A DNA stretch of 64,000 nucleotides from NCBI RefSeq assembly GCF_035621475.1, contig NZ_CP141799.1, positions 5,282,698 to 5,346,697 of the forward strand, read 5' to 3'. Every line of letters starts with the position of its first letter. Within the stretch, counting starts at the first letter, position 1. Of this stretch, positions 19,254-40,470 are shown in pieces. The notes beneath the pieces were generated by a model. It ran no database searches, was not told the origin of the DNA, and saw only the letters and a list, made by a program, of their open reading frames with translations. Source of the stretch: Pseudomonas paeninsulae. GTDB taxonomy: Bacteria; Pseudomonadota; Gammaproteobacteria; Pseudomonadales; Pseudomonadaceae. The position numbers and the translations under genes were made by a program.

Positions 19254-19551
19254 GGTGCCCAAGAGCCTGAACAGGGTCTGCTGCGCGTCGGCCATGCTGC
19301 GTTGGAAATGGCTTCGAACTGCTCATTTACTACTCGTAAACTCCGCATTCTCAGCCATTTCCGCCTTGCCTGGCTCTAGCTCGCACGCCCCTGGACAGGC
19401 TCTAAAATGGGCCTAAGAGGGAATCCGGAGCGATCTGCTGATCGTGACCGAGCTGCCCCCGCAACTGTAAACAGCGAGTCTGCCGCAACAGCGCCACTGG
19501 GTAACCGGGAAGGCCGCGCCAGATGATGACCTGTCAGCCAGGAGACCTGCC
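19254..19551 (+). promoter_or_regulatory. Cobalamin riboswitch controlling cobGHIJ (with a 122-bp insertion)
   Basis: Core elements in order: GGTGCCC (19254-19260), CCTAAGAGGGAATCCGG, CTGCCCCCGCAACTGTAA, GCCACTGGGTAACCGGGAAGGC and the B12 box AGCCAGGAGACCTGCC (19536-19551). Its span of 298 nt is far longer than usual because a 122-bp palindromic repeat (19272-19393) sits in the first long hairpin; without it the length is about 176 nt. It lies upstream of cobG on the plus strand, so B12 should repress the operon. Confidence 0.92.
19272..19393 (-). repeat. 122-bp palindromic repeat, copy 1 (inside the cobG riboswitch)
   Basis: Outer arms CAGGG...CCCTG enclose the conserved TCTGCTGCGCGTCGGCC at the left and GGCTCTAGCTCGC at the right, with an inner hairpin GGAAATGGC/GCCATTTCC and a tip TTTAC...GTAAA. 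It is in the opposite orientation to copies 2 and 3 and has the same length. It is flanked by AGAGCCTG and CAGGCTCT, so it sits on top of an existing riboswitch helix. Confidence 0.9.
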
Positions 19552-19791
19552 TACGACGCTAGTCGCGAGTGCCAACATCGGGCGGGGTGTACCGATGCCA
19601 TTGAGTTCCCCTCCCACTTGGGCGGACTCTGCTGGTTCGGTCGCCGCGTCGTAGAAGCTGTTTACGATCTCGCGAGCTAGAGCCCTGCAAGGCAAAAACA
19701 GGCGAGGAAGCGGAGTGTACGAGCTGTACATGAGCATTCCGAGCCTGTTTTTAACGCAGCAGGGCCGACGCGCAGCAGATCGTAGGCAGGT
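19545..19791 (+). promoter_or_regulatory. Possible expression platform of the cobG leader (alternative pairings with the B12 box)
   Basis: ACCTGCCTACGA (19545-19556, overlapping the end of the B12 box) is perfectly complementary to TCGTAGGCAGGT (19780-19791), just before the cobG start. The overlapping CTACGACGC (19551-19559) can instead pair with GCGTCGTAG (19646-19654). The 3' partner in turn overlaps the arm AGATCGTA of repeat copy 2, which pairs with TACGATCT. Mutually exclusive helices of this kind are what a B12-dependent switch needs. This is inference from complementarity. Confidence 0.45.
19663..19784 (+). repeat. 122-bp palindromic repeat, copy 2 (cobG leader)
   Basis: Arms TACGATCT (19663-19670) and AGATCGTA (19777-19784). 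Inside are CGCGAGCTAGAGCC, the inner stem GGCAAAAACAGGC/GCCTGTTTTTAAC, and GACGCGCAGC. It is nearly identical to copy 3 apart from the arms and scattered bases, and it ends 27 bp before the cobG start. Confidence 0.92.
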
Positions 19792-19811
19792 TCGTTGTTG
19801 CTGGTGAACCT

Positions 19812-21167
19812 TTGCGCGACTTTTCCACCACCGTCGATCCGTCCGTACCACGCCCCGAAAAACCGGGATCGGCGTGCCCCGGCCTGTTGCGTATCGTCCA
19901 TGCCCTGGACGGCGGCATCTGCCGGGTCAAGCTGGCCGGCGGCGTATTGAGTAGCGCCCAGGCCCGTGCCATTGCCGAGGCGGCCAGCCACTGCGCCAGC
20001 GGCGTATTGGAACTGACCAACCGCAGCAACCTGCAGATTCGCGGCGTGCGCCGCGAAGCCGAGAAGCCGCTGATCGAGCGCCTGCTGGCCGCCGGCCTCG
20101 GCCCACGGCATGTCGCCAGCGACGATGTGCGCAACCTGCTGCTCAGCCCCGCCGCCGGCCTCGACCCAGAGGCCCTGCTCGATACCCGGCCGCTGGCCGC
20201 ACAACTGCTCGCGCTGCTGCAGGACAGCCCGGTGCTGCACGCGCTATCGGCCAAGTTCGCCCTCCAGTTGGACGGCGGCGAAGCCCTGACGATGCTCGAA
20301 CACCCCCACGATATCTGGCTCAGCGCCCTGCCCGGACAGCCGGTCCGGCTGGCTTTCGGTCTGGCCGGTTGCCCCGGTGAGGCGCCACTAGGCGTGGTCA
20401 ACGTCGAACAGGCGCCCGTGCTGATCGAACAACTACTAAAGCTGTTTCTCGAACTAGCCGGCACAGACCACAGCCGCATGCGCCAGCTGCTGAGCGTGAT
20501 TCCAGCCAGCCAACTCCTGCAACAACTGCAAGCGCGCCTGCCCTTCACCCTGCAAGCCGCACCCGTAGCGTGGCAGCGTCCGCCGGTCAGCCCGCACGCG
20601 CCCATCGGCACGTATCCACAGCGGCAAGCGGGCCGGTGCATGGTCGCCACCGCCGCGCGACTGGGCCGGATCGACGCTGCGCAACTGCGCGCCCTGGCCG
20701 ATTTGGCCGAACAGCAGGGCGACGCCAGCCTGCGCCTGACGCCCTGGCAGGGCCTGCTGCTGCCGAATATCCCCGCGACGGCGGCAGACGCCGTGCTGCA
20801 GGCGCTGGGCGATCTCGGCCTGCTGAGCGATGCGCATGAGCCCTTAACCAGCCTGATCGCCTGCACCGGCTCCGCCGCCTGCGGCAAAGGCCTGAGCGAC
20901 AGCAAGGCCGATGCCCTGCGCCTGGCCGAGCGCCTGCGCGCCAGCAGCGCACGGCCGCAGGTGCATCTGAGCGCCTGCCCGCGCTCCTGCGCCGCCGCGC
21001 ACACCGCACCTTTTACCTTGTTGGCCAGCAGCGCCAGCCACTACCAGCTCTATCAACGCACGCCTGAGGTGGCCGGTTTCGGTCAACTGCTAGCCGCTGC
21101 CATGACTATCGACGAGGCCGGCGACTGGTTCGCCGCCCACTGCGCAACAGGAAACCGCAATGCTTGA
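19812..21167 (+). CDS. cobG: Precorrin-3B synthase CobG
   Basis: 451-residue monooxygenase related to sulfite/nitrite reductases; it uses O2 to make precorrin-3B and so marks the aerobic B12 pathway. The N-terminal SACPGLLRIVHALDGGICRVKLAGG block and the C-terminal [4Fe-4S]/siroheme-type cysteine set (CTGSAACGKG and SACPRSCAAAH) are clear. The best start is TTG at 19812 (MRDFSTTVDPSVPRPEKPG), with GGTG just upstream; no better ATG exists. It is the first gene of the cobGHIJ operon behind the riboswitch, and its end overlaps cobH by 8 bp. Confidence 0.93.
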   Translation: MRDFSTTVDPSVPRPEKPGSACPGLLRIVHALDGGICRVKLAGGVLSSAQARAIAEAASHCASGVLELTNRSNLQIRGVRREAEKPLIERLLAAGLGPRHVASDDVRNLLLSPAAGLDPEALLDTRPLAAQLLALLQDSPVLHALSAKFALQLDGGEALTMLEHPHDIWLSALPGQPVRLAFGLAGCPGEAPLGVVNVEQAPVLIEQLLKLFLELAGTDHSRMRQLLSVIPASQLLQQLQARLPFTLQAAPVAWQRPPVSPHAPIGTYPQRQAGRCMVATAARLGRIDAAQLRALADLAEQQGDASLRLTPWQGLLLPNIPATAADAVLQALGDLGLLSDAHEPLTSLIACTGSAACGKGLSDSKADALRLAERLRASSARPQVHLSACPRSCAAAHTAPFTLLASSASHYQLYQRTPEVAGFGQLLAAAMTIDEAGDWFAAHCATGNRNA

Positions 21168-21786
21168 GTACATCCGCGATGGCCAGGAAATCTACCGCCA
21201 ATCGTTCGCCACCATCCGCGCCGAGGCCGACCTCAGCGCTATCCCTGCCGATCTGGAAAAACTAGCGGTACGGCTGATTCACGCCTGCGGCATGGTCGAT
21301 GTGGTGCAGGACCTGCGCTTTTCCGCCGGTGCCGGAGCGGCCGGCCGCGCCGCCCTGGCCAAGGGCGCGGCGATCCTCTGCGATGCGCGGATGGTCGCCG
21401 AAGGCATCACCCGCCCGCGCCTGGCCGCCAACAACCCGGTGATTTGCACCCTGCACAACGAGGGCGTGATTGATCTGGCCCACGAGCTGGGCAACACCCG
21501 CTCGGCGGCGGCCCTGGAGCACTGGCGCGCGCACCTGGAAGGCAGCGTGGTGGTGATCGGCAACGCCCCCACCGCGCTGTTTTATCTGCTGGAAATGCTC
21601 GACGCCGGCGCGCCCAAGCCGGCGCTGATCATCGGCATGCCGGTGGGCTTTATCGGCGCGGCGGAGTCCAAGGACGCCCTCGCAGCCGACAGCCGCGGCG
21701 TGCCCTACGTAATCGTGCGTGGTCGCCGCGGCGGCAGCGCGATGGCGGTGGCGGCGGTCAACGCCCTGGCCACGGAGGTGGAGTGA
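21160..21786 (+). CDS. cobH: Precorrin-8X methylmutase CobH
   Basis: 208-residue isomerase that moves the C11 methyl group to C12 to give hydrogenobyrinic acid. Family blocks visible are DGQEIYRQSFATIRAEADL, the catalytic-His region VRLIHACGMVDV, and FIGAAESKDALA. It overlaps the end of cobG, and its stop overlaps the cobI start (TGATG), which indicates tight coupling. Confidence 0.96.
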   Translation: MLEYIRDGQEIYRQSFATIRAEADLSAIPADLEKLAVRLIHACGMVDVVQDLRFSAGAGAAGRAALAKGAAILCDARMVAEGITRPRLAANNPVICTLHNEGVIDLAHELGNTRSAAALEHWRAHLEGSVVVIGNAPTALFYLLEMLDAGAPKPALIIGMPVGFIGAAESKDALAADSRGVPYVIVRGRRGGSAMAVAAVNALATEVE

Positions 21787-39727: not shown

Positions 39728-39844
39728 GGGCGACCCTGCGTGGCTTCGAAAGAAAGACCAGCGGGCAGGGGGAACAGGCGTGGCGATACAACGCGCCAGC
39801 CATGCACCACCGGAGCACCCCGCCCGGTTGTCAAAAGCGTTGCG

Positions 39845-40060
39845 AGGCAGGTCTCCTGGCTCACGACCGGGCTGGCGAATACTCGCCGGCCATTCCCTTC
39901 GCCTTCCCGCGCGGACGCAGTGGCTGTCGGGCTGTCGCGCTCAGGCGACAGACCAACACAAGGGTACGAGTCGTTTACAGTTGCGGGGGCAGCCAGGGCA
40001 TAAACCCTGTTCCCTCTTAGCTTCGGTGGCAAAACCGAAGAACCTCGACGGGGGTGAAGG
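39845..40060 (-). promoter_or_regulatory. Cobalamin riboswitch upstream of cobW
   Basis: On the minus strand the elements run CTAAGAGGGAACAGGG, CTGCCCCCGCAACTGTAA, GCCACTGCG...GGGAAGGC and the B12 box AGCCAGGAGACCTGCCT (39845-39861). About 216 nt, the normal length, without a repeat insertion. It should repress cobW-cobN-chlD-cobF when B12 is sufficient. The 75 nt between it and the divergent riboswitch must hold both promoters; I see no clear -35/-10 pair. Confidence 0.93.
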
Positions 40061-40134
40061 CTACGCAGTGCCCGCAGGCAGGTCAATCGCCGCAGTTGAC
40101 GGGCAGGGCCGCTTCGTGATGTTCTAAAAAGCTG

Positions 40135-40470
40135 TTTCAGGTGTCTCGCGCATTACTGCGCGAGGTGAAACGGGAAGCCAGTGCGCCCTTACGGGCAATT
40201 CTGGCGCTGCCCCCGCAACGGTAAGCGCATGTCAGAATCTGTACAAAGTCTCGCGAGCTAGAGCCATGCAAGGCAAAAATAGGCGAGGAAGCGGAGTTTA
40301 CGAATTGTAAATGAGCATTCCGAGCCTGTTTTTAACGCAGCAGGGCCGACGCGCAGCAGACTTTGAATAGGTTCTCAGGGTCGTTATAGCCACTGAGCCG
40401 CACGGCTTGGGAAGGCTGACCCTCCACTGTCCAGTCGACAGTCTGCGTAAGCCCGGAGACCGGCCTGAAA
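40135..40470 (+). promoter_or_regulatory. Cobalamin riboswitch upstream of cbtBA (with a 122-bp insertion)
   Basis: P1 is TTTCAGG (40135-40141) with CCTGAAA (40464-40470). Core parts are GAAACGGGAAGCCAGTGCG, CTGCCCCCGCAACGGTAA, GCCACTGAGCCGCACGG...GGGAAGGC and the B12 box AGCCCGGAGACCGGCC (40450-40465). The span of 336 nt contains a 122-bp repeat (40244-40365) between CGGTAA and GCCACTG; the rest is 214 nt, like the cobW copy. Confidence 0.92.
40244..40365 (+). repeat. 122-bp palindromic repeat, copy 3 (inside the cbtB riboswitch)
   Basis: Arms CAAAGTCT (40244-40251) and AGACTTTG (40358-40365). The interior matches copy 2 closely (CGCGAGCTAGAGCC, GGCGAGGAAGCGGAG, ATGAGCATTCCGAGCCTG, GACGCGCAGC). 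Flanks AGAATC and GGTTCT can extend the helix. It sits in the variable peripheral stem of the riboswitch. Confidence 0.92.

Follow-up and report, generated by a model that had tools for sequence, protein, structure and literature searches.

Three repeats at two cobalamin riboswitch loci

The stretch analyzed here (the window) is 64,000 nt of the genome of Pseudomonas paeninsulae (RefSeq assembly GCF_035621475.1, contig NZ_CP141799.1, positions 5,282,698 to 5,346,697 of the forward strand). It contains three copies of a short repeat element, in which a folded core is enclosed by terminal repeats of the kind found on insertion sequences (IS), all three in or near cobalamin (B12) riboswitches. 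The copies and adjoining features are as follows, in window coordinates.

19260..19262, strand not assigned: left flank of copy 1, CAA (by eye)
19263..19402, minus strand: copy 1, 140-bp element with GAGCCTG-type ends (boundaries by eye)
19277..19387, minus strand: folded core of copy 1 (118.1 bits)
19369..19568, plus strand: cobalamin riboswitch RF00174, between copies 1 and 2 (85.1 bits)
19654..19793, plus strand: copy 2, 140-bp element with flanks GTA and GTT, without a clean duplication
19669..19779, plus strand: folded core of copy 2 (124.3 bits)
40122..40482, plus strand: cobalamin riboswitch RF00174, with copy 3 inserted within it (72.4 bits)
40232..40234, plus strand: left target duplication of copy 3, TCA
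40235..40374, plus strand: copy 3, 140-bp element within the B12 riboswitch (boundaries by eye)
40250..40360, plus strand: folded core of copy 3 (119.2 bits)
40375..40377, plus strand: right target duplication of copy 3, TCA

A preliminary description of the window had reported three palindromic repeats of 122 bp. All are present where it placed them, but the palindromes extend further, and the 122 bp form the interior of 140-bp elements. It had also put all three in or beside B12 leaders; only copy 3 is within a riboswitch match, while copy 1 reaches across the 5' edge of another, sharing the initial 34 bases of the match at 19369..19568, and copy 2 is positioned 3' of that same match. The right flank of copy 1 (19403-19405) is TAA, as against CAA on the left, which judged by eye is at best a mutated TNA duplication. 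By BLAST, copy 3 is 95% identical to copy 2 and 79% identical to copy 1, the latter in inverse orientation. The claim that the 64 kb hold no further copy stands except for a weak match at 18341-18458 (18.1 bits), which is likely due to chance; copies elsewhere in the genome are nevertheless numerous. A third cobalamin riboswitch is found on the minus strand at 39829-40062, divergent from the one holding copy 3.

Distribution of the element

In the P. paeninsulae genome as a whole (5.35 Mb), 34 copies were found by BLAST and 52 by a covariance model built from 20 of its own copies (E ≤ 0.01; 150 of 1743 first-look candidates scored). Assuming that the contig starts at the origin, 33 of the 52 have the same orientation relative to replication. 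The search of related genomes proposed in the preliminary description yielded copies in 43 of 57, spread over 12 of 22 genera (E ≤ 0.001), with anywhere from 0 to 66 per Pseudomonas genome. In the Gammaproteobacteria more widely, 130 of 369 genomes and 105 of 272 genera have copies at E ≤ 1e-6; just 10 candidates were scored per genome, so that the copy numbers here are lower bounds. A pattern scan of named genomes returned at least 119 stretches, and many of the 80 loci read carry the core, with E-values that are not independent because the pattern itself selected those loci. The core is also present, at weaker scores of about 32-50 bits, in contigs of metagenome-assembled genomes (MAGs) with Bacteroidota labels (Alistipes, Prevotellaceae, Tannerella, Bacteroidaceae, and Flammeovirgaceae). 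Contamination may account for some high-scoring matches, in a Pedobacter MAG and a Desulfobacterales MAG. Nineteen plasmid records have copies, 18 from Pseudomonas and one from Halomonas; phages gave no match to a window copy used as query, and E. coli genomes none to one gammaproteobacterial copy.

A Mariprofundales MAG of 2.0 Mb (G425, locus L255) has 552 forward and 547 reverse matches to GTAACTRCTCAGMTY, in pairs about 121 bp apart, and possibly holds some 500 copies of the core element with 8-bp duplications. Among 40 elements compared there, the duplication is exactly 8 bp in four and 0-2 bp in all others. A partner IS was sought in two long end-to-end intervals of this MAG, but these contain ordinary genes.

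Structure of the core

The elements are 121-150 bp long and have no transposase gene. IS-type terminal repeats of about 15 bp flank a rod-shaped, gene-free core of ~110 nt, with variable stems and invariant loops. From the outside in, the terminal repeat is followed by an outer internal loop, a 5-bp stem, a CAAGGC/AACGC loop, a 10-bp stem, tandem GA/GA, a short stem, a GGA/GA loop, and a closing stem GTKTAC/GTAMAT, whose first pair is a fixed G·U. Some copies have short nested hairpins within the core loops. In 10 of 222 distinct copies (among them L017, L020, L021, L118, L198, and L205) the internal loops contain an additional 16-bp unit resembling CTGGGCTCGCACTCGA, and five (L158, L085, L165, L032, and L036) have longer nested hairpins of about 45 bp (GCGGAGTAACAGCC...GGCTGGCCC...) off the left arm. 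The core has no family match in Rfam 15, where the window itself scores only for cobalamin riboswitches; copy 2 scores highest with sX9, at 19.1 bits against a threshold of 44 bits. A K-turn or other known RNA motif was considered and dropped, with no fit by eye and no Rfam match.

The arms had been described as changing together, and this holds beyond the window, since stem letters differ between copies and still pair. Among the 20 own copies in the model, 94.9% of cells are paired, compared with 81.6% after shuffling and at most 42.8% when the partner is slid by 1-3 columns, and 22 of 34 pairs have changes on both sides. The same rod was recovered from 43 copies chosen for diversity and aligned by MAFFT on sequence alone, with no structure used. 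Here 92.6% of cells are paired (72.2% shuffled; at most 43.2% with slid partners), both sides have changed in 22 of 26 pairs, and the covariation score is 0.522 against 0.154 shuffled. The internal loops are invariant in this set, and the G·U pair is kept in 43 of 43 copies. Related copies are not independent, so these statistics are support rather than proof, but the preliminary suggestion of a structured element under selection is supported by both sets: the stems covary and the loops are fixed across genera.

The wobble pairs are not symmetrical between strands. Outside the fixed pair, G·T cells number 46 and A·C cells 17 in the 43 diverse copies (hand sum; p 3e-4). In 198 distinct copies (226 rows, less 17 removed for gaps and then duplicates), the counts are 189 and 111 once the fixed G·U is excluded, or 176 and 86 on excluding also a second pair, chosen after seeing the table. 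With RNA parameters, the modeled strand folds more stably than its complement in 20 of 20 own and 41 of 43 diverse copies; with DNA parameters it does so in all 63. The fixed G·U, the G·T excess, and the difference in strand stability fit selection on the single-strand fold of one strand.

Terminal repeats, target duplications and empty sites

Inverted ends were identified in the copies flanked on each side by 40 or more bases. Duplications were counted by end type for 73 of 222 distinct copies, the remainder having other, decayed or missing ends. Copies with CAGGCCGTTGAAA ends have a 4-bp duplication in 22 of 42 cases and those with GCTCTGTACGAAA ends in 8 of 17, while GARYCTGTT ends, the window type (GARCCTGTTCA in the window), go with a 3-bp TNA duplication in 5 of 14. 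A duplication thus adjoins the ends in 35 of the 73, and none of another length from 2 to 9 bp was found in the three end types. Further end sequences under the same core include GTAACTACTCAG and ACTGTGTCACAAAAC, so that one core is found between differing terminal repeats with duplications of 3, 4 or 8 bp. Several end types are alike in a GGCYNTGTT..GAAA look. Near-identical core starts (GTAGCGAGCG) adjoin different ends within a single genome. Two palindromes that have the same ends but lack the core (L172 and L174) were considered as ancestors that later gained it, and rejected; L174 reads as a deletion product because it retains a piece of the core end.

Candidate partner IS were found for two end types, from two subgroups of the IS5 family. 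In one relative (G012), six stretches of 1,337 bp are delimited by TARCAGGCCGTTGAAAAA; they represent an IS with CAGGCCGTTGAAAAA ends and a 4-bp YTAR direct repeat in six of six (CTAG in five, CTAA in one); the one copy read encodes a 374-aa IS5-family transposase (NF033581, 260.6 bits; cut-off 140). The same genome carries a core element with CAGGCCGTTGAAAAA ends (L408, 31.5 bits). Two others (G007 and G010) have an IS of ~950 bp with GCTCTGTACGAAA ends and a two-frame transposase (NF033580, 113.5-138.9 bits; cut-off 110), as well as core elements with GCTCTGTACGAAA ends. The core has no match within the IS themselves (L191, L192, and L402). Near single CAGGCCGTTGAAAAA ends in the P. paeninsulae genome no partner IS was recognized, reading by eye only and with no open reading frame (ORF) search.

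Sites without the element are found in relatives. Among eight orthologous cob loci, three (G012, G013, and G028) have the riboswitch but neither copy 1 nor copy 2, two (G008 and G001) have a copy elsewhere in the leader, and three lack the riboswitch. The copies in the latter two leaders (L111 in G008, L118 in G001) are independent ones, at positions unlike those in the window. The site of copy 3 is empty in five relatives (G001, G003, G013, G027, and G028), and compared with the first of these copy 3 is a plain insertion, with TCA on either side as a 3-bp direct repeat. In G013, an element-like sequence (L381) lies directly 3' of the riboswitch with the empty copy-3 site.

The preliminary description had raised, as one option, that the palindrome is mobile, homes on the tips of hairpins, and acquires its arms from the hairpin it enters. 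Its mobility is borne out; homing on hairpin tips is not supported. Many copies at unrelated sites share the same IS-type terminal repeats as their outer arms, and at the empty site of copy 3, the site read for this purpose, no arms pre-existed; some copies elsewhere (such as L022, L024, and L026) have unique arms. The relatives' empty sites and the 3-bp target duplication together indicate that target hairpins are not the source of the arms. An empty site with simple target duplication had been named beforehand as an observation that would speak against tip targeting, and copy 3 provides it.

Genomic context

B12 leaders are not a general address of the element. Of 50 loci retrieved by position from the same genome, 40 that lie outside the window were scanned with Rfam, and none had a match. 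Among 20 loci from relatives, four had one, and in a single case (L053) the element is inside it: this copy (1501-1611) is within the rne 5' leader, where a match to RF01756 (rne-II) spans it at 1434-2013. The orientation of copies relative to flanking ORFs was counted from rough ORF calls, with a further 38 copies that overlap an ORF set aside. The count includes 35 convergent and 22 divergent cases.

Interpretation

The repeats are, with good confidence, a non-autonomous transposon of the miniature inverted-repeat transposable element (MITE) type, with IS-type ends and a conserved gene-free folded core. Mobility is well supported: the element has inserted with a short direct target duplication, and relatives have empty sites. 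It has the traits of a MITE, namely terminal inverted repeats, target duplication, short length without a transposase gene, and a partner IS for two end types. The transposases of IS5-family elements with matching ends would move it in trans. The core would be under selection as a one-strand fold, acting single-stranded, most likely in RNA and less likely in single-stranded DNA (ssDNA). Upon transcription the element would fold on itself, the host leader or trailer staying intact, and the fixed G/A loops would meet a conserved RNA-binding or RNA-cutting protein. In B12 leaders it would survive as insertions into variable hairpins keep the aptamer foldable; a simpler reading of copies in riboswitch hairpin tips than targeting is that they persist there because a self-folding insert disturbs the RNA least.

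Several observations weigh against this picture. Copies show no bias in orientation to flanking ORFs (37 with, 42 against), and those opposed to genes are nearly as well paired as the others (93.2% vs. 96.3%, p 0.09). On these two grounds a role in host transcripts is not supported, and the lack of bias led to the rejection of such a role as read from orientation. No IS turned up for the window's GARCCTGTTCA ends, for which no pattern search was made, and the three IS5-family copies in the P. paeninsulae genome have apparently different ends. More than half of the copies with recognizable ends are without an intact duplication, window copies 1 and 2 included, and in many, some from the same genome, the ends are short or not recognizable.

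Two explanations start from the setting of the window copies. Targeting of hairpin tips, with arms taken from the target, would fit the small hairpin at the copy-1 site in two relatives (G012 and G013) and the G001 copy in the tip of a riboswitch hairpin, but IS-type arms common to copies at unrelated sites and flanked by direct duplications, the plain insertion of copy 3, and the existence of an IS with the same ends make it very improbable, and it was rejected on the empty sites and the copies elsewhere. A B12-specific regulatory RNA adjoining the riboswitch is a shade less credible still: three copies at two B12 loci, and one each in the orthologous leader of G008 and G001, would be expected of it, but not the lack of Rfam matches at the other own loci or the three relatives that keep the riboswitch without the element, and it was likewise set aside. 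Complementary arms might also be kept by template switching (quasi-palindrome correction) with no selection on the fold. The near-perfect arms, terminal repeats included, and their joint changes are what such a process would leave, but mismatched internal loops are fixed in both arms over 43 diverse copies rather than made palindromic, and a process indifferent to strand would produce G·T and A·C in equal numbers, where 46 vs. 17 and 189 vs. 111 are observed; this explanation is unlikely.

The alternatives that keep a mobile element are less remote. Its core could act as ssDNA, during replication, excision or transposition, rather than as RNA, a possible though not a favored variant. The absence of gene-orientation bias, the structure kept in opposed copies, and the greater stability of the same strand in all 63 copies under DNA parameters are in its favor, but the ends and duplications are typical of DDE transposases, and this analysis connected no HUH protein or strand-specific nuclease with the element. 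DDE transposases of the IS5 family act on double-stranded ends. It is also conceivable, if somewhat doubtful, that this is one ordinary MITE lineage whose ends have drifted with their transposases, with no end exchange. The common look of several end types and the IS5-family membership of both partner IS suit this, but duplications of 3, 4, and 8 bp and ends such as GTAACTACTCAG or ACTGTGTCACAAAAC would be hard to reach by drift, and near-identical core starts stand beside different ends in one genome. A more speculative extension of the preferred reading, that of a MITE-type transposon with a selected core, is that the core is itself the selfish unit, a strand-specific fold found across Proteobacteria and Bacteroidota that swaps ends and rides unrelated transposases while its loops bind conserved machinery. 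The loops may then act as RNA or ssDNA, and the core itself may be able to enter new ends; this is tentatively suggested as one possibility among others.

Relation to known elements

A literature search by 13-mers and 11-mers of the core and by keywords found no paper describing it, as judged from titles and abstracts (for the 11-mers, from the titles among the matches listed), with figures and supplements outside the search. Interspersed palindromes that are mostly intergenic are known as ERIC or RU elements and REPINs (as outlined in PMC10969869). Their sequences differ from that of the present element, which has no Rfam or E. coli match. They are not known to be linked to IS5 ends. QMITE2 of Coxiella, as described in PMC5896051, is 150-190 bp long, with terminal repeats, a hairpin RNA, and a frequent location at the 3' ends of genes; it differs in its direct repeats of 7-11 nt, and its description has no cross-genus covarying core, a comparison of descriptions in which sequences were not aligned.

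Nearer counterparts come from Pseudomonas. The R0, R2, and R178 repeats of P. fluorescens are intergenic and 89-110 bp long, some with IS ends; R178 (101 bp, with internal 11-bp inverted repeats) is in all three strains and is likened to the element here by its description in PMC2718517 alone, not by sequence. MITEPsy1 of Pseudomonas syringae is 100 nt long, with IS-type ends finishing in CTCTGAAAAAG, a 4-bp duplication of CTAG or YTAA, and demonstrated transposition (PMC3189936). Its ends resemble those of locus L249, again by description and not by core sequence, and, unlike for the present element, a fold is not mentioned in that description (PMC3189936). Judged in this way, R178 and MITEPsy1 are possible relatives.

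The element accounts for odd insertions in riboswitch and rne leaders, and the covariance model is now ready for use on a widespread repeat that has been overlooked in genome annotation. Bacterial MITEs are usually taken to be deletion remnants of a single IS. If a folded core is kept by compensatory changes across many genera while ends and duplication lengths differ, such elements would be selected for their own structure. The kind of element is one already known, a MITE of IS5-type mobilization: like other IS5-moved MITEs it is short and gene-free, with the ends and duplications of IS from the same or related genomes. To these features it adds, under different ends and duplication lengths, a covarying strand-specific core, and it is this one core under several kinds of ends, in many genera and absent from Rfam 15, that is new.

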